This document shows positions 16,133-24,416 of a DNA stretch of 64,000 nt, in pieces (position 1 is the stretch's first letter; each line of letters begins with the position of its first letter). The position numbers were made by a program, and so were the translations under genes. The DNA is from Balneola sp. GTDB taxonomy: Bacteria; Bacteroidota; Rhodothermia; Balneolales; Balneolaceae. The stretch covers positions 620,001-684,000 of the forward strand of contig NZMW01000001.1 of assembly GCA_002694685.1 (NCBI GenBank). Direction: 5' to 3'. Below the pieces are notes generated by a model, which was not told the DNA's origin, made no database searches, and saw only the letters and a program-made list of their open reading frames with translations.

Positions 16133-17278
16133 ATGGCCGATTTTTCTCAAAAAAGCACCATTTCCATAACCTGCCCAAAGCGCATCACCCCTTACCTTAA
16201 AGATGAGCTTACTAATCTCGGATTTCCGATTCACAAAGTACGTCACGCAGGGATTGAGACCGAAGGCACGCTGAATGACTGCATGATGTTGAATCTGAGC
16301 CTTAGAACCGCACATCGCGTTCATTATCGTCTCAAAGATTGCAGACCGCAGAATGGAGATCAGCTTTATGATGAGCTGATGAAGATCCCATGGGAAGATT
16401 ATATCGATCGGCATGGATATGTAAGTGTTACTTCCTTCATCAATAATAAAACGGTGACCAACACCCAGTTCGCCAATATGAAGGTAAAAGATGCGATTGT
16501 GGATCGTATCAGAAACAAAACAGGTACCCGCCCTGATTCAGGACCTAATCTGAATAAAAGTGTTGTTTTTGTGTTTTGGAAGAATGACAGAGCACAGATT
16601 TATTTAGATACTTCCGGAGAATCCATTTCGCGCCGTGGTTACCGGACTGAAACCAGCACAGCCCCAATGCAGGAAACACTCGCAGCATCTATGATTTTAG
16701 CGAGTAAGTGGAAACCGGGAAATCATTTTATAAATCCGATGTGTGGTAGTGGGACTATCGCTATTGAAGCCGCGCTACAAGCTCTGAATAAAGCTCCAGG
16801 CTTGCTAAGGCCTAATTATGGTATCAAGCATATACTTGGCTTTGATGAAGAGCGCTGGAACGATTTAAGGTCAGATTTAAAGAATAAGGCTAACAAAGAC
16901 TTTGAAGGACGCATCATTGCTACTGATTATGATGTAAGAGCGGTTGATGCTACTCGTAAAAATGCCCGAACTGCCGGCTTAGACCATCTTATTGAAGTGA
17001 AAAAGTGTGATTTCAGCGAAACCGAGATTCCCGAAGGAGATCCGGGCGTAATTATGCTGAACCCTCCTTACGGAGATCGTATTGGAAACGAGAAAGATCT
17101 TGAGCCGGTGTATGAAGGAATCGGTGATTATTTCAAACAAGAGGCTACCGGTTGGTGGGGATATGTATTTACCGGAAATTTCGATCTCGCCAAGAAAATA
17201 GGATTGCGAACCAATCAACGCATTGAGTTTTATAACTCTACCATAGATGCCCGCTTACTGGAATATGAGCTGTACTGA
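16133..17278 (+). CDS. THUMP-domain class I SAM-dependent RNA methyltransferase (RlmL-like)
   Basis: A 381-residue protein with an N-terminal ferredoxin-like/THUMP region (about 1-160) and a C-terminal UPF0020 methyltransferase domain. The SAM site is NPMCGSGTIAIEAAL, and the catalytic motif NPPYGDRIG fits N2-guanine methyltransferases. In E. coli the equivalent half of RlmKL makes m2G2445 in 23S rRNA; the length here matches the stand-alone YpsC/RlmL form without the RlmK half. The exact target base is inferred from homology. The ATG at 16133 follows a repeat-bearing spacer. Confidence 0.9.
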   Translation: MADFSQKSTISITCPKRITPYLKDELTNLGFPIHKVRHAGIETEGTLNDCMMLNLSLRTAHRVHYRLKDCRPQNGDQLYDELMKIPWEDYIDRHGYVSVTSFINNKTVTNTQFANMKVKDAIVDRIRNKTGTRPDSGPNLNKSVVFVFWKNDRAQIYLDTSGESISRRGYRTETSTAPMQETLAASMILASKWKPGNHFINPMCGSGTIAIEAALQALNKAPGLLRPNYGIKHILGFDEERWNDLRSDLKNKANKDFEGRIIATDYDVRAVDATRKNARTAGLDHLIEVKKCDFSETEIPEGDPGVIMLNPPYGDRIGNEKDLEPVYEGIGDYFKQEATGWWGYVFTGNFDLAKKIGLRTNQRIEFYNSTIDARLLEYELY

Positions 17279-17367: not shown

Positions 17368-18618
17368 CTAATCTGTAATCCTGTTCTTCTCCTCAATCCA
17401 TTTGCTCATAAACTTGGTACTTGCAGCCATATGGTATTGTAAGATAGATCCCATAAAGTTCTGTTGCCGATGGCTTTGAAGTTTATCTAAAACTTGATCA
17501 ATTCCTTTCTTGAAGTGCTTTCTCCAAACCATTTTGTTGTACCTCTGGTTAATAATTTGGATACCATTCTCTTGAGCTGCTAACAACTTTGTGTCATCCA
17601 GATACAGCTCAATTGCTTTTTCAGCAAACAGATTGGGATCGTCTTCTATAAAACCCGGCCAGGTCAGGTCACCGTGCATTGACTCAGCTCCAATTGATGT
17701 TGTTACACTCGGCGTGCCACACTGCATTGCTTCGATCAGCTTCCCTTTCAGTCCGGCACCGAACCGCAAAGGTGCTAAAAGAACTCTCGAATTACCTACC
17801 ACCTCTTTTGCGTCTTCTGCCCTCCCCTTTACTAAAAACCCTTGCTTTGGATTATGCAGTTGCTCCACTTTTTGAGAAGAATAGGCTCCATAAATGTGCA
17901 GTTCAGCTTCAGGGATTTCCTTCCTTATTAAAGGCCATATCTCTTCCTTCAAATACAATACGGCATTCCAATTGGGTTCGTGTAAGAAGTTACCAATAGA
18001 TATAAAGTGATTACGTTTATCAATTGGTGTCCAGTTTCTTACAGTATTCTCATTAATATTATCTAACATGAATGGAAGGTGCAAAAGTAAGCGTTCATCA
18101 ATCCGAAAAACTTCTTTAAGTAACTTCATTTCGTACTCCGAAATTATCAGCGAGAGGTCGCATCGAAGAATACTTGCAATTTCACGCTTAGCCGTATCGT
18201 TAAACAAATCTGATTGATTGAACTCCCTCCCTTCTTTCCATGCTTGCTGTCGGGCTAGTCTTAGGCAGTGGAGATCTTCGGTATCCAAAATCTTTAACGC
18301 ATTCGGGCAACATTCAGTAACGCGCCATCCAAATTGTTCTTCGGTCATAAAACGATCAAACAAAACGATATCCGGATTTAGCTCAATTACAAAATGATCA
18401 AAAGAGGAATTGTTTAGCTTAATCTGAGCTGATTGAATACCTAACTCATTTAGCTCAACAGAAAATTCTTTGTTTGAGGCTGCAGCAGCAAAAGTGATAT
18501 CATAACCCTCAGATTGGAAAAAATCGATAAGCTCAATCATTCTCGAGCCAGCTGCCGATGAAGCAGGTTCCGGCCAGACTTTCCCAATTATCAATACCTT
18601 TAACTCTCTACTACTCAT
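17368..18618 (-). CDS. Glycosyltransferase, GT4-like (GT-B fold)
   Basis: A 416-residue protein. The N-terminal half starts with a Rossmann strand (LKVLIIGKVWPEPASSAAG) and the C-terminal half has the GT4 donor site: FISIGNFLHEPNW, ELHIYGAY, VKGRAEDAKEV, and APLRFGAGLKGKLIEAMQCGTPSV with SIGAESM, where the Glu of the EX7E-type motif is seen. Donor and acceptor are unknown. No polysaccharide cluster surrounds it, and it is transcribed alone. It could decorate a lipid or surface glycan. Confidence 0.85.
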   Translation of the reverse strand: MSSRELKVLIIGKVWPEPASSAAGSRMIELIDFFQSEGYDITFAAAASNKEFSVELNELGIQSAQIKLNNSSFDHFVIELNPDIVLFDRFMTEEQFGWRVTECCPNALKILDTEDLHCLRLARQQAWKEGREFNQSDLFNDTAKREIASILRCDLSLIISEYEMKLLKEVFRIDERLLLHLPFMLDNINENTVRNWTPIDKRNHFISIGNFLHEPNWNAVLYLKEEIWPLIRKEIPEAELHIYGAYSSQKVEQLHNPKQGFLVKGRAEDAKEVVGNSRVLLAPLRFGAGLKGKLIEAMQCGTPSVTTSIGAESMHGDLTWPGFIEDDPNLFAEKAIELYLDDTKLLAAQENGIQIINQRYNKMVWRKHFKKGIDQVLDKLQSHRQQNFMGSILQYHMAASTKFMSKWIEEKNRITD

Positions 18619-18755: not shown

Positions 18756-19625
18756 ATGAAATCTTCAAAACTATGGGTTGCCTTTCTTTCACTAATACTT
18801 CTGATTGGATTCACAGATAAAATCAATGCTCAAACAGACACTGACACCACAACATATCTGGTAATTAAGAATGACGGTTCAAGATATATTGGGCAAATAC
18901 TCTCTCAGGATTCCCGTGAAGTAGTGCTGCTCACCAAGGAGCTTGGCGAAATTGCTATTCCAAAGCACGAAATCAAAGAAATCAGAGAGCTAAGTACTGA
19001 TGAGGTAAATGAAGATGGTTCACTTAAAACCAGCAGTCCTTTCTCAACTCGTTATTATATAACAACGAACGCCCAGGCCGTCTCAAAGGGTGATAACTAC
19101 ATTATTTGGAATTTATATGGCCCTGATATTCAATTTGGAGTAAGTGATAATTTTGGAGTTGGACTAATGACCACTTGGTTTGGCTCACCAATTGTTGGCT
19201 CTGCAAAGTACAGTCTCGTTAATGATAAGAAAATAGGTGTAGCTGTAGGAACTCTATTGGGAACAGGGTCATGGGCTTCTCCTGAATACGGTATTGCGGT
19301 TCCATTTGGCTCTTTCACTTATGGAAGTATCGAAAAGAATGTATCCTTATCGCTTGGTTATGGAGCCGTCTTTGGACCCGGAAGCTCCGGCGGGTCGCCA
19401 CTGTTTTCACTGGCAGGCATTAATAGAGTGAGTGAGCGTGTAAGCTTGGTTTTTGACTCTTTTGTAGTAACAGAAGACAGTGAGGTGGCCGCATTGATAA
19501 TCCCTGCAATAAGATTACACTCAAGTCCGGAAAAAGCATTCCAAATTGGTTTTGCAGCCGTTGCTGCTGATGGAGAGCTATTACCAATGCCCTTCCCTTT
19601 TCTGCAATGGTTCAGGAAGTTGTAA
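18756..19625 (+). CDS. Secreted beta-barrel-like protein with N-terminal small domain (paralogue A)
   Basis: No named family recognised. From the ATG at 18756 it has 289 residues; a TTG 36 bases earlier is less likely because it would put a charged tail before the signal peptide. The signal peptide runs to about residue 26 (KINAQ). A small domain follows with the pattern DGSRYIGQILSQDSREVVLL and ELGEIAIPKHEIKEI. The rest is glycine-rich, amphipathic beta sequence like an outer-membrane barrel. It is clearly related along its length to the convergent gene at 19745-20638. Probable location: outer membrane. Confidence 0.75.
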   Translation: MKSSKLWVAFLSLILLIGFTDKINAQTDTDTTTYLVIKNDGSRYIGQILSQDSREVVLLTKELGEIAIPKHEIKEIRELSTDEVNEDGSLKTSSPFSTRYYITTNAQAVSKGDNYIIWNLYGPDIQFGVSDNFGVGLMTTWFGSPIVGSAKYSLVNDKKIGVAVGTLLGTGSWASPEYGIAVPFGSFTYGSIEKNVSLSLGYGAVFGPGSSGGSPLFSLAGINRVSERVSLVFDSFVVTEDSEVAALIIPAIRLHSSPEKAFQIGFAAVAADGELLPMPFPFLQWFRKL

Positions 19626-19669
19626 AAAGACCGCTCTAATGAATGAATCAAAGAATGGTTATGCCGCCT

Positions 19670-19693
19670 CGAGCAGATATTTACATCTGCTCG
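19670..19693. terminator. Hairpin between the convergent barrel genes
   Basis: CGAGCAGAT (19670-19678) and ATCTGCTCG (19685-19693) form a perfect 9-bp stem with a 6-base loop, 45 bases after one stop codon and 52 before the other. There is no T-run on either side, so it may act as a weak or bidirectional terminator or only protect 3' ends. Confidence 0.45.
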
Positions 19694-19744
19694 TTCTGCA
19701 TATAGCTAGCATCTTTACTGTCCAGATTTAAGAATAGTTGGGTT

Positions 19745-20638
19745 TTATTTACCAAAGGGTATTGCAACTCCCAGCCAAGGCACGCCAATAAATCCACCGC
19801 CTATGCTTTCTCCAACAACAAATGGCCGGATTAAACCAAAATCTACAGCAAAGTTCTCGGGCGCCCATCGTAAAGATCCTGACAATAAACCTACAGTTTC
19901 ACCACCAGACGAGACAAAGTAATTTTCGGATATCAAGTAGAGTTTTTTATTAATCCTATACATCCCGTTTAGGTTTATCAGTGGGATATCAGACCAATTT
20001 CCATCAGCATAGCCGTAGCCAATTCCTAAAGACACGTTATTGTCCCGGTTTCCGGCTGTAACCACTCCATAAGCCATTCCAAAACCGGAATCATCCTCTC
20101 CAACAACCGTCCCAAAAAGCCCCCCGGCCGCAACATGAAGTTTATCACTCGCTATAGGAATTGAAACCTTAGGCATTAACCAAAACGGAGTAGCTCCGGT
20201 CCCAAACAAAAATGTCGGAATAACACCTGCTCCCATTGAGAATTTATTCGTTAAACCATAGTTCACGTTATTGAAGAAAACCCAGGTATTCTGATAATAA
20301 CCTTCCCCTTTTTTCAACCCGATTGCATTCGTACTAAACAAATAGCGGGTGCTATGGGGATTCTCAAACCAGTAATCACCATCTTCCTTCAAATGCTTGG
20401 GATCAATGACTTCCATGCTTCTAATTCTATTCCGCTGTATGGTGATTTCCCCAAGATTTTCAGTGTCCAAAACTATTTCCTCAGCGTTTTCAGAAACAAT
20501 AGTCCCAATAAAAGTATTTCCATCTTTCGTTACGACGCGGTAGGTATTTACTTCTTGCTGTGCAAAGACCGGCTCAGTTATCAAAAGTGCAATCAGTGTG
20601 AATAGAAAGCAGCTGATGAGTAAGGTGAATTTTCTCAT
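19745..20638 (-). CDS. Secreted beta-barrel-like protein with N-terminal small domain (paralogue B)
   Basis: 297 residues with a clear signal peptide ending near VFAQQ (residue 28). The small domain reads DGNTFIGTIVSENAEEIVLD then NLGEITIQRNRIRSMEV, aligning with paralogue A without large gaps. Next come a Ser-Thr-Arg-Tyr motif (HSTRYLFSTNA; SFSTRYYITTNA-like in A) and a glycine-rich barrel-like region ending in hydrophobic residues. The family is unnamed to me. A spaced inverted repeat (20692-20700 / 20734-20742) lies upstream of the start and might be an operator. The convergent arrangement suggests an old inverted duplication. Confidence 0.75.
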   Translation of the reverse strand: MRKFTLLISCFLFTLIALLITEPVFAQQEVNTYRVVTKDGNTFIGTIVSENAEEIVLDTENLGEITIQRNRIRSMEVIDPKHLKEDGDYWFENPHSTRYLFSTNAIGLKKGEGYYQNTWVFFNNVNYGLTNKFSMGAGVIPTFLFGTGATPFWLMPKVSIPIASDKLHVAAGGLFGTVVGEDDSGFGMAYGVVTAGNRDNNVSLGIGYGYADGNWSDIPLINLNGMYRINKKLYLISENYFVSSGGETVGLLSGSLRWAPENFAVDFGLIRPFVVGESIGGGFIGVPWLGVAIPFGK

Positions 20639-20754: not shown

Positions 20755-21414
20755 CTATTTTTTTTGAATGATTGTAACTCCATCCCGTATCGGAAGCATC
20801 AACTGTTCAACCCGCTCATCTGAGGCTATTTCTTTATTGAAAGCATCCAATGCTATTGATTTATGGTCCTTAGGCTCCAAGACAAAGCCATCCCACAATA
20901 CATTATCGACCACTATTAACCCGCCTGTCTTAAGTAATGGCAACACCTTTTCAAAATAAAGTGAGTAGCTAAGCTTGTCTGCATCCATGAATACTAAATC
21001 AAACTCTCCATCAAGTTCAGTTACCAAATCCTGGGCGTTACCTTTTAGTAATTTAATTTTCTGATCCTTATCAAAACGCTTGAAATGCTCCTCAGCCAGC
21101 TCCTGATACAACAAATTCATTTCCAGAGTAATGACTTCCCCTCCCTCCGGCAAAGCTTCTGCAATCATCAGAGCTGAATACCCCGTAAATGTACCAATCT
21201 CCAAAACTCGCTTAGCTCCACTAATACGCACGAGCATTTTTAATAACTGACCTACTAAATTTCCACTCAGCATGTCGATATACTCTAATTCCTCACTAGA
21301 TGACGTAACAAGAGCTTTTATGCTTTCAGACTCCTGCGTGGTCATCTTACGTGCATATTCTTCTATCTTAGGATCCGTTATTTGAACGATCGATTGGTCT
21401 CTGTGCTTCTTCAT
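20755..21414 (-). CDS. Class I SAM-dependent O-methyltransferase (catechol-OMT-like)
   Basis: About 219 residues from the ATG at 21414; a GTG 18 bases upstream is possible but less likely. The SAM-binding core is seen: KRVLEIGTFTGYSALMIAEALP, then VITLEMN, then FDLVFMDADKLSY with the metal-binding Asp, and GGLIVVDNVLWDG. This is the PF01596 type, which methylates hydroxyl groups of catechols, phenols or related small molecules in a Mg2+-dependent way. The substrate is unknown. It is divergent, by 49 bp, from the acyltransferase of the carotenoid-type cluster, so a link to that cluster is possible but unproven. Confidence 0.88.
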   Translation of the reverse strand: MKKHRDQSIVQITDPKIEEYARKMTTQESESIKALVTSSSEELEYIDMLSGNLVGQLLKMLVRISGAKRVLEIGTFTGYSALMIAEALPEGGEVITLEMNLLYQELAEEHFKRFDKDQKIKLLKGNAQDLVTELDGEFDLVFMDADKLSYSLYFEKVLPLLKTGGLIVVDNVLWDGFVLEPKDHKSIALDAFNKEIASDERVEQLMLPIRDGVTIIQKK

Positions 21415-21463
21415 GATTGAAAGATAAGGCACAACACCCTATTATCACCAAAAAAAGAAAGCA

Positions 21464-22129
21464 TTGAATATCATACCTGCCGACGAATCTCGCTTTTTCA
21501 TCTGGTTTTTTGACCAATATACCCGCTGGTCGCTAAAGAGACGTTTTAATCAAATATGGGTGAAACAGGGATATCACCCCACTTCGGCTTCCAAGACGGT
21601 TTATTTCTTAAACCATAATCTTTGGTGGGATGGCTTGATTCCGCTTTATCTGAATCGCAATTTCTTCAAGCAAAAAGCCCGGGCTTTGATGGAAGATAAA
21701 CAGATGAGACAGTATACATTCTTCAGTAAAATCGGAGCTTTTTCAATTAACCTTGAAGATCCTAAAGCCTCTATTTCTTCTTTGCGTTATGCGGTTGAGT
21801 CTATGGAAAGAGACAACTCATCTTTGTTCATTTACCCGGAAGGATCTATAACTCCACCCTCCGAATCAGCTCCAAATTTCAAAGACGGGCTCGCCTGGAT
21901 TTACACCAAAACCGAGCAAGTCGACTTTGTACCCATTCATATTTACGCCCACTTCATGAATGGCAGTAAACCGGAGCTATATTTATCAATAGGAGAATCA
22001 GTTAATCATGATAAATCACTAAGCAGGAATGAATTAACAAAATTATTTGAAGAAGATATTCAGCAAATTAACACCCAAACAAGAGCTGTAGCTGGAATCT
22101 CTGAAGAGGGCTTTGAAGCTCAATTTTAG
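21464..22129 (+). CDS. PlsC-type acyltransferase, candidate carotenoid glycoside acyltransferase (CruD-like)
   Basis: A 221-residue 1-acylglycerol-phosphate acyltransferase-fold protein. Motif I is NHNLWWDG, giving the catalytic His51 and Asp56 (HX4D); motif III is FIYPEGS (about residues 122-128). The family transfers fatty acyl groups to hydroxyls. Here the neighbours are a CrtC-type hydratase and a GT2 enzyme, as in the chlorobactene glucoside laurate pathway of green sulfur bacteria, where CruD is the acyltransferase. The role as CruD is inferred from context. The start is TTG at 21464. It converges on the crtC-like gene with 15 bases between. Confidence 0.8.
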   Translation: MNIIPADESRFFIWFFDQYTRWSLKRRFNQIWVKQGYHPTSASKTVYFLNHNLWWDGLIPLYLNRNFFKQKARALMEDKQMRQYTFFSKIGAFSINLEDPKASISSLRYAVESMERDNSSLFIYPEGSITPPSESAPNFKDGLAWIYTKTEQVDFVPIHIYAHFMNGSKPELYLSIGESVNHDKSLSRNELTKLFEEDIQQINTQTRAVAGISEEGFEAQF

Positions 22130-22144
22130 CCTAAATAATTAAGG

Positions 22145-23212
22145 TTACCATGTCCACGGGTACATCAGCCTTGATTTTTGCACCCAATGTGGCTGCTCAT
22201 CCATATACCTGAGTCGCATATGCACCAGAGGCCAGTACACTCTTGAGTATATATTTTCGGGATATATAAACTCTGAAATACCATGTGCTGCATGAACTTG
22301 ACTGTTGTACTTAATTATTGAATTACCCAAGAAACGCTGATAGAAAGGGCCATCATCTATTTTAGATTTACATTGAATATTTACTGATACTTGTCCTGCT
22401 TTTAAATCTATTTTCCGGGCAGAATTCAAGCCAAACCAATTTCTCGTAAAATAGTCGAGATCTGCCTCTTTAAAATGCTCCATCACCTTTTGATTTGCAC
22501 GGTCTATCATCCATCCCTCAAACTGAGTTTGCTCGTGCTTTTGCATGAGGTAATAGACAAAGGTGAAGTCTTCAAAATGGTACCTTCCCCAATACCAATC
22601 CCGGAAACTTTCTTTCATTGGTTCATGCCCGGTATTATGATCATGGTATCCCGAACCTTCAAAACGAAACTCCTCTTCCCCATGGATACCATCCACATCA
22701 AAAAAAACAGAAACATCAGTTCGTGGCTGTATCAAATTCCAGATATGCCGGTCTGTACTTTCGGAAGTGATTAGATCCGGCTTTGTTCTGTTCCCCTGCC
22801 CTTTGATCTCTCCTTTTATAGAATGACCAGATGCTAACTTCTGATCTAGCTTTATATTGAACTCGAACTCATTCCCTTTACCTGAGTACTGCACAGTATC
22901 GTTACCGACCTTCAATTCAGGTTTATTGTTATCCCAGGAAAATTCCCCTTCATCAAATTCCAGAAAGCTGTAGTAGATGGTCTTTCCATTTTTGTAGAGA
23001 GAAACGCTTATAGCGGGATATGCGTCCTGTAGGGCTTTTTCTGCCTCTAAGTCGTTAATGTATCTCGTTGAGAATGGATTATGTTCATAGAAGATGATCA
23101 CATAACCAAAGTTTCCATCAGCACTTAATCCATCAAAGTACCACCACTCATAGCCACCGAACGACTTTTTGAAATCTGGAGTTATGTGCCTTTCATCTGT
23201 AGATATATTCAT
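22145..23212 (-). CDS. crtC: Carotenoid 1,2-hydratase (CrtC-type)
   Basis: A 355-residue protein of the CrtC/AttH lipocalin-like family. Recognisable marks are YEWWYFDG near the N-terminus (about residues 22-29) and GYHDHNTGHEPM then DWYWGRYHFEDF in the middle, the conserved acidic and His residues of the hydratase. CrtC adds water across the terminal C-1,2 double bond of acyclic or monocyclic carotenoids, making a tertiary alcohol that can be glycosylated. No signal peptide is evident. The start is ATG at 23212 rather than the TTG two codons before. It is divergent by 58 bp from the GT2 gene and convergent with the acyltransferase gene. Confidence 0.85.
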   Translation of the reverse strand: MNISTDERHITPDFKKSFGGYEWWYFDGLSADGNFGYVIIFYEHNPFSTRYINDLEAEKALQDAYPAISVSLYKNGKTIYYSFLEFDEGEFSWDNNKPELKVGNDTVQYSGKGNEFEFNIKLDQKLASGHSIKGEIKGQGNRTKPDLITSESTDRHIWNLIQPRTDVSVFFDVDGIHGEEEFRFEGSGYHDHNTGHEPMKESFRDWYWGRYHFEDFTFVYYLMQKHEQTQFEGWMIDRANQKVMEHFKEADLDYFTRNWFGLNSARKIDLKAGQVSVNIQCKSKIDDGPFYQRFLGNSIIKYNSQVHAAHGISEFIYPENIYSRVYWPLVHMRLRYMDEQPHWVQKSRLMYPWTW

Positions 23213-23270
23213 ACTCAAATAAACTAATCGTGTTGGTGAACGGCAACGCTCTGTTTACTAACTTTCGTTC

Positions 23271-24416
23271 ATGGAAATCTTTCTTTACATAGCAGCCAGC
23301 TACATTGGATTCACTCTTTTTGTATTTACAAGGAATTGGTTTGAGTTTAAATCACTGTCTGATCAACCACATTTTACTTCCGAAAAAGCAACGCCATTGG
23401 TCAGTATTTGCATTCCGGCTCGTAACGAGGAGGCTGTCATAGATCAGTGTGTGACTTATGCCCTTAAACAAGATTACCCCAATTTTGAAGTTTTGGTGCT
23501 GGATGATAACTCAACAGATGGAACTACAGAAATTCTGGAAGAGCTTTCAGGAATCATCAACAACCTGCACCACCTCAAAGGCAAGCCTAAGCCTGATGAA
23601 TGGCTTGGAAAGCCATGGGCCTGCCATCAGCTAAGCAAACACGCCAGTGGGGAGTATTTAGTTTTTATTGATGCCGATGTTTGGTTAGAAGAGCATGCGA
23701 TCAGCAAGGCTATCCATGCCCTACAAAACTCAAATGCCATTACCGTTTGGCCCAAGCAAGCTGTAGAAACCTTTTGGGAAAAGTTGATTATCCCCATGAT
23801 TTATTATGGACTCTATTCTCTCCTCCCTGCGAAATATGTTGAGCAGAGCCCAAAATGGTTGCCCCAGAATCTTAGAAAAAAGATGGCTCCTCAGTTCGCA
23901 GCTGCATGTGGACAGTTTATAGCCTTCACAAAAAACGCTTATGAAACCATTGATGGACATACTTCCGTGAAACAAGAAATTGTGGAAGATGTTGAGCTCT
24001 CTAAAACAATAAAGCGGAACGGGCTGTCAATTACCATGTATGATGGAGTCGACACCGTAAACTGCCGGATGTATCAAAATCATTCTGATATTTTCGAGGG
24101 ACTCCGAAAAAACTTCTTTGTTGGCTTTGGCCGAAATGTACCGCTCTTTCTTTTCATGGCGACTATGCAAGTCATCACATTTATACTTCCGGTCATCTTT
24201 CTTTTCATTGGAAATTCATTTGTTCAAACCTTATCTGCTGCTCTCATAGGTGTATTCCTGATACAGCGCTGGCTGATGGATTATAGGTTTGGCTGGAATC
24301 CTTTTGTAAGCCTGCTTCAACCTTTAACCATCCTTTGGTATGAAGTATTAGGTATACGTTGTCTATGGGATCATTTCACCGGAAAAAAGGCAACCTGGAA
24401 AGGGCGTGAAGTCTGA
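23271..24416 (+). CDS. GT2 family membrane glycosyltransferase, candidate carotenoid glucosyltransferase (CruC-like)
   Basis: A 381-residue protein with an N-terminal helix (1-20), a GT2 catalytic domain and three or four C-terminal membrane helices (about 290-360). Catalytic marks: SICIPARNEE, VLDDNSTDGT, the DXD motif DAD at 134-136 in FIDADVW, and QEIVEDVELSK, which holds the ED catalytic base region. CGQFIAFTKNAYETIDGH is typical of CruC/CrtQ-like enzymes. The context with a CrtC-type hydratase and an acyltransferase suggests it puts glucose on the hydroxyl made by the hydratase. The donor and acceptor are inferred. Confidence 0.8.
   Translation: MEIFLYIAASYIGFTLFVFTRNWFEFKSLSDQPHFTSEKATPLVSICIPARNEEAVIDQCVTYALKQDYPNFEVLVLDDNSTDGTTEILEELSGIINNLHHLKGKPKPDEWLGKPWACHQLSKHASGEYLVFIDADVWLEEHAISKAIHALQNSNAITVWPKQAVETFWEKLIIPMIYYGLYSLLPAKYVEQSPKWLPQNLRKKMAPQFAAACGQFIAFTKNAYETIDGHTSVKQEIVEDVELSKTIKRNGLSITMYDGVDTVNCRMYQNHSDIFEGLRKNFFVGFGRNVPLFLFMATMQVITFILPVIFLFIGNSFVQTLSAALIGVFLIQRWLMDYRFGWNPFVSLLQPLTILWYEVLGIRCLWDHFTGKKATWKGREV

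Follow-up and report, generated by a model that had tools for sequence, protein, structure and literature searches.

The acidic-sugar porins KdgM and NanC consist of a barrel of 12 strands and, to our knowledge, have no N-terminal domain comparable to that of the two proteins considered here. Some barrel proteins of the DUF481 family (PF04338) carry an N-terminal segment of a pattern similar to theirs. The COG4313 channels (Phenol_MetA_deg, given the accession PF13557 in PMC9581022) combine 12 strands with a segment ahead of strand 1 and, according to PMC4493636, the lumen of the barrel is occluded by the ~14 residues at the N-terminus, unlike the situation in NanC. The amyloid exporter FapF is ordered as periplasmic part, plug and 12-stranded barrel and, according to PMC5557850, is a trimer whose barrel is closed by a helical plug that salt bridges pin in place and that is connected to a coiled coil in the periplasm.

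Here we analyze two genes, P1 and P2, of Balneola sp. (assembly GCA_002694685.1) that lie in a window of 64,000 nucleotides (the whole stretch of DNA studied, contig NZMW01000001.1, positions 620,001 to 684,000), to which all coordinates without a locus label refer. Their products share with KdgM and NanC a predicted 12-stranded barrel, at an identity of about 10% and with no KdgM model among their Pfam matches. With COG4313 they share the segment before strand 1, from which they differ by an extra, putative Sm/SH3-like domain ahead of that segment and by the lack of a PF13557 match. The models agree with FapF in order and fold, a small beta domain being present instead of the coiled coil. Our preferred reading of this architecture is a variation on the plugged 12-stranded channels, and the domain pair is real and nameless in the libraries searched.

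Genes and domain layout

P1 extends on the forward strand from an ATG at 18756 to a stop codon ending at 19625 (289 amino acids), and P2 on the reverse strand from an ATG at 20638 to a stop codon ending at 19745 (297 amino acids). The sequence-only reading had taken the two for convergent paralogs that align end to end, and a BLASTP alignment of 277 columns (identity 30%, positives 55%, E value 5e-35), which excludes a chance likeness, bears this out. In P1, a signal peptide (residues about 1-25) is followed by a small five-stranded domain (33-79), a segment containing the STRY motif (about 90-112) and a 12-stranded barrel (115-288); the corresponding limits in P2 are about 1-26, 32-78, 89-111 and 112-296. 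Read from the sequence, both signal peptides end in an A-Q junction, and the motif DG...G.I.S...E.V.L.T..LGEI.I....I, the STRY segment and the glycine-rich part, all noticed in the same reading, are present in both products. A search of the genome for a third copy of the family yielded P1 and P2 only. The pair is flanked by a gene for a group 1 glycosyltransferase (17368-18618, reverse strand) and one for an O-methyltransferase (20755-21432, reverse strand).

Between the convergent stop codons lies the perfect hairpin that had been described earlier (19670-19693), with arms of 9 bp (19670-19678 and 19685-19693), a loop of 6 and a folding energy of about -17 kcal/mol on either strand. The window has five perfect hairpins of such size, while 20 order-1 random sequences average 1.95, so that this class of hairpin is not rare there, and a terminator scan called none at this position. 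In two relatives that possess only P1 (G001 and G007) a different hairpin followed by T-runs is seen by eye 3' of the gene, which makes a bidirectional terminator between P1 and P2 plausible.

Predicted fold

AlphaFold models were computed from an alignment of 28 rows for P2 and one of 27 rows for P1. Alignment A1 comprised 26 homologous proteins from loci L004-L032, with L006, L014, L016, L027, L028 and L030 omitted as cut, over-long or by choice. Both models, with mean pLDDT values of 89.8 (P2) and 83.8 (P1), show five short strands within about 47 residues, a loop segment and then twelve barrel strands. The P2 model was most similar among solved structures to KdgM (Z 18.0; 163 residues aligned at 2.6 A), VhGalP (Z 17.7; 180 at 3.8 A), NanC (Z 16.4; 171 at 3.5 A), FapF (Z 16.3; 193 at 3.6 A) and a COG4313 channel (Z 16.2; 192 at 3.8 A). 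Similarly, the P1 model was matched to VhGalP (Z 16.7; 168 at 2.6 A), KdgM (Z 15.9; 153 at 2.4 A), NanC (Z 15.8), COG4313 (Z 15.1; 186 at 3.3 A) and FapF (Z 14.1), identities to the structural matches being near 10% for both proteins. Alignments of the P2 model with FapF and COG4313 begin at residues 90 and 101, and that of the P1 model with COG4313 at residue 102. When Foldseek was used with P2, KdgM was the top match (E 8e-5), with TM-scores of 0.41-0.46 over the query and 0.68-0.76 over the target; among the best 16 matches the whole-query scores were modest (0.31-0.46). At the sequence level, searches for the barrel in solved structures gave chance-level matches, both with P2 alone and with a profile of the whole family. 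From the models, the barrel of P1 and P2 is best read as being of the 12-stranded channel type, rather than of the 8-10 strands that had been proposed from the sequence.

The strands of the small N-terminal domain (N-domain) of the P2 model run from 32-37, 42-50, 54-59, 63-68 and 72-78, with corresponding strands in P1, and both models thus contain five short strands in about 50 residues, as in Sm/SH3-like small barrels. A profile of the N-domain (A4) was built from 30 of 35 segments, the omitted ones being three of P2 type (from L015, L019 and L021) and two of P1 type that were nearly identical. Against solved structures it matched residues 237-286 of the diheme protein 7zs0 (E 8e-4) and, as the best LSm chain, 4xq3 (E 1e-3); we take the matched LSm proteins to be archaeal. 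Single members of the profile weakly matched the RimP SH3 model of Pfam (4 of 30, best 1.6e-5) and Hfq-like models, and among NCBIfam models LA_3334 (16 of 30, best 6.3e-7), LA_0442/LA_0875 (13 of 30) and TIGR02603 (9 of 30). Every score listed for P1 and P2 themselves was under its cut-off. The N-domain thus weakly but repeatedly resembles Sm/SH3-like small barrels, and the five-stranded models together with the weak profile matches point to such a fold. Of the proposal that an SH3/Sm-like domain is fused to a barrel, the domain order and the presence of a barrel were recovered in the models, the Sm/SH3 character is suggested by weak profile matches and the number of barrel strands did not hold.

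Considered alone, the N-domain shows a weak likeness to domains of Leptospira and other proteins. This likeness to Sm, LSm, Hfq and RimP-SH3 small barrels, TIGR02603 and the Leptospira domains LA_3334 and LA_0442 consists of weak profile matches; in contrast to these, the N-domain of P1 and P2 is predicted to be exported and is joined to a putative outer-membrane barrel. The N-domain is modular, since one homologue (L009:1747-2748) carries two copies in tandem (residues 27-69 and 72-124 of the open reading frame) and since it is undetectable in 5 of 81 family members, some of which may be cut or mis-started. Also, stretches like the N-domain are found inside open reading frames of about 900-1340 amino acids in several genomes of the order (G082:C280:34957-35112 and similar places), and further large proteins apparently make use of it.

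Family distribution and two subtypes

No named family had been recognized for the domain pair, and P1 and P2 indeed remain under every Pfam and NCBIfam cut-off. The KdgM model was absent from the hmmscan matches of P1 and P2 up to an E value of 10, a limit at which HMMER filters drop very weak matches, and from those of 28 family members up to 0.1. Neither PF13557 nor DUF481 (PF04338) was matched by P1, P2 or the 28 family members scanned. DUF481 is represented in the genome by one gene elsewhere (C10) which, by eye, lacks such an N-domain. A weak match of P1 to DUF5777, a membrane beta-barrel family, was under the cut-off (E 0.21), and the PHROGs collection gave one weak match, to a family of unknown function. 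In the literature, at the level of titles and the beginnings of abstracts, no report pointing to a fusion of such an N-domain to a barrel was found. A contig scan seeded with P2 alone returned 29 loci, all with titles that read as Bacteroidota-side. A family which is common in the phylum and whose members P1 and P2 lie under the Pfam and NCBIfam cut-offs marks a gap in outer-membrane annotation.

Within the order, 72 of 128 genomes match a P1 profile and 82 a P2-led profile (E <= 0.001), and most match both because the subtypes are related. Assigned by the higher score, P1 is present in 11 genomes (G000, G001, G005, G007, G022, G029, G031, G033, G060, G098 and G102), several of them partly incomplete (G098 63%, G102 86%), and P2 was counted by us from the tables in 66 genomes at E <= 1e-30. 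Both subtypes occur, among the candidates scored, in a single genome, G000, which is that of the window; at most the best 18 candidates per genome were scored in the P2-led search of the order and at most the best six in searches of the phylum, so that a second copy may escape. By chance, 5.7 genomes with both would be expected; the probability of at most one is 0.003 if genomes are independent, which, being related, they are not. When the ten other P1 genomes were searched with P2 and all candidates scored, the P1 gene was the sole match in nine, and the tenth (G033) contained two further weak, barrel-only matches. In a sample of the phylum, 82 of 394 genomes match the P2-led profile at E <= 1e-8, and the P1 profile clearly outscores it in four genomes beyond the order (G165, G223, G243 and G265).

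In a tree of 81 sequences, all 11 P1 sequences from the order fall into a single clade (support 1.0, branch of 1.43). This well-supported clade on its long branch and the P1-type matches outside the order show that the split between P1 and P2 is far older than the genus. The sequence-only reading had suggested an inverted duplication for the pair, and the convergent order and the paralogy of the two genes would suit such an event. However, P1 and P2 are only 30% identical, the P1 of the window shares 72-76% identity with the P1 of three relatives in the genus, the two proteins belong to separate old clades, and their genes occupy a site whose content varies between species. A recent inverted duplication is therefore contradicted by tree and synteny; we reject it and give it next to no credence. 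As a separate observation, three and two family members stand in a row on one strand in L012:3954-6873 and L018:4734-6891, respectively, and local tandem expansion of the family therefore also occurs.

Conservation was calculated from the 81 distinct sequences (11 of P1 and 70 of P2 type), each spanning at least 180 model positions. Among the 70 P2-type sequences the mean entropy is 1.34 bits for segment 89-111 and 0.84, 0.97 and 1.23 for barrel strands B1-B3, while the N-domain and the loops have higher values (2.17 and 2.19, respectively) and strands B4-B12 range between 1.18 (B12) and 2.24. R98, K157, N201 and R257 (P2 numbering) are shared by 93-100% of the sequences in either subtype, or by 90-100% if Y99 is included. 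Near-fixed differences between P2 and P1 include N123/P123, N117/W118, E238/D234 and D266/Q263, and such differences lie mostly on strands B1, B2, B7, B9 and B11.

Variable slot in the genus

In relatives of the same genus the genes for the glycosyltransferase and the O-methyltransferase border a slot of variable content. It contains P1 alone in G001, G005 and G007, P2 alone in G003, G004 and G006, neither gene in G002 and G009, and both only in the genome of the window. In G008, P2 stands alone beside the O-methyltransferase gene on a contig that ends inside the slot, with the left border out of view, and this P2 reads as broken near its end, with matches in more than one frame. As in the window, P1 is opposite in strand to the glycosyltransferase gene in the three genomes with P1 alone, and P2 is on the same strand as that gene in G003, G004 and G006. 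In the seven genus genomes with one subtype, tblastn and blastn revealed no clear remnants of the other in the slot.

The block also includes a gene for an RlmL-like methyltransferase (16133-17278, forward strand). In G060, a genome of another genus, P1 directly follows the RlmL-like gene in the same block, so a position of P1 close to the present one probably predates the genus. In G015 and G062, an apparent O-methyltransferase gene comes, by eye, directly after the RlmL-like gene. The history would be simplest if an ancestor had both genes and its descendants lost one or the other; alternatively, P1 or P2 may have been gained. An unrooted tree of the genus groups the window's genome with those that have P1 alone (support 1.0), but trees rooted with G060, from which G008 was omitted, place it with low support (bootstrap 55 and 62). 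No gene order common to P1 and P2 was found in the genera g4, g5 and g20 or in the family f5, so that a common slot is shown in one genus only. Clustering of the genes at 39 loci, of which several ran into contig ends and most had no more than 6-9 kb of flank, brought up no widely recurring partner gene; the largest cluster besides the family itself was an ABC-type ATPase group at seven loci, followed by blocks of three to four loci. The alternation of P1 and P2 amounts to a natural experiment, in which close species differ in the subtype filling one site.

Proposed function

With modest confidence, we favour a reading of P1 and P2 as alternative subtypes of one gated channel of the outer membrane, in which the N-domain precedes a plugged 12-stranded barrel. 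The two would be anciently diverged subtypes of one outer-membrane family of Bacteroidota, a phylum assignment taken from record titles. Once a cleaved signal peptide has directed export, the ~180 residues at the C-terminus would form an outer-membrane barrel of the KdgM/NanC/COG4313 type. The highly conserved segment before strand 1 (NPHSTRY...GLxKGEGYY in P2) would plug the lumen of the barrel, following the precedent of COG4313 and FapF, and would be held by the conserved charged residues R98, K157, R257 and E238 of P2, the last being Asp in P1. From these two precedents and from the structural alignments that start at residues 90-102, we infer that segment 89-111 plugs the lumen in contact with conserved charged residues, the small domain lying below it in the periplasm; counting against this, the top matches KdgM and NanC have no plug. 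Hanging in the periplasm, the Sm/SH3-like domain might control the plug or dock a partner, and the likeliest role would be to let a small ligand through selectively, under the control of a gate. The near-fixed differences on the strands suggest that P1 and P2 may handle different ligands or partners, and one subtype could presumably stand in for the other. Against the channel reading count the modest whole-query Foldseek scores, the 5 of 81 family members in which the N-domain is undetectable, the lack of a widely recurring neighbour that would point to a substrate, and the fact that similarity of fold shows no function; against the exchange of subtypes count that presence and absence come from related, non-independent genomes and that the common slot is seen in one genus only. 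If the plug reading is true, the family would join FapF as an example of a lumen plug with an adjoining periplasmic part. A bolder version, in which an exported Sm/SH3-like domain gating a plugged 12-stranded channel is an undescribed architecture, the two ancient subtypes are mutually exclusive in Bacteroidota and the window's genome represents a transitional or ancestral coexistence, seems to us possible but rather doubtful.

Alternative subtypes at one slot could also resemble the turnover of surface antigens, as would be expected if P1 and P2 were structural surface proteins or receptors, the barrel merely anchoring the small domain and the swaps resulting from selection by phages or predators. 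We regard this as improbable, for conservation sits in the pre-barrel segment, in B1-B3 and in single charged residues of the strands, and the subtypes are ancient and nearly fixed rather than changing fast. Both models have FapF, which is built in the order periplasmic part, plug and 12-stranded barrel, among their best structural matches, as would suit a secretion pore that opens for an unfolded polypeptide instead of a small ligand. Such a role is distinctly improbable, given that FapF, according to PMC5557850, acts together with other products of the fap operon, whereas P1 and P2 have no neighbour that recurs widely, and that in their putative periplasmic part a small beta domain takes the place of the coiled coil. 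Finally, the lipid A deacylase LpxR (Z 14.0) and the phospholipase OMPLA (Z 11.9) appear among the structural matches of P2. OMPLA uses a catalytic histidine and LpxR is believed to do likewise. As both rank below the channels and no histidine reaches 80% conservation in both subtypes across the 81 sequences, an enzyme barrel of either type is highly improbable.

Other genes of the neighbourhood

A third gene comes and goes in the slot: a predicted lipoprotein of 162-170 amino acids, whose start looks lipoprotein-like by eye, adjoins the O-methyltransferase gene in G003, G005, G006 and G008 (L083, L089, L091 and L092), with mutual identities of 31-54%, and is absent from the window. In G013 (L184/L186) a gene for a 379-amino acid product directly follows the RlmL-like gene, and near its end the last 32 residues of the RlmL-like methyltransferase are matched, in part, a second time; the 379-amino acid gene may be an insertion with a duplicated end. 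On the other side, window positions 20755-24416 harbor genes for the O-methyltransferase, a PlsC-like acyltransferase, an unassigned product of 357 amino acids that had no Pfam match at 1e-5 and may be a CrtC-like hydratase, and a family-2 glycosyltransferase. This group, which is reminiscent of a carotenoid glycoside cluster, is kept together in all nine relatives of the genus examined.
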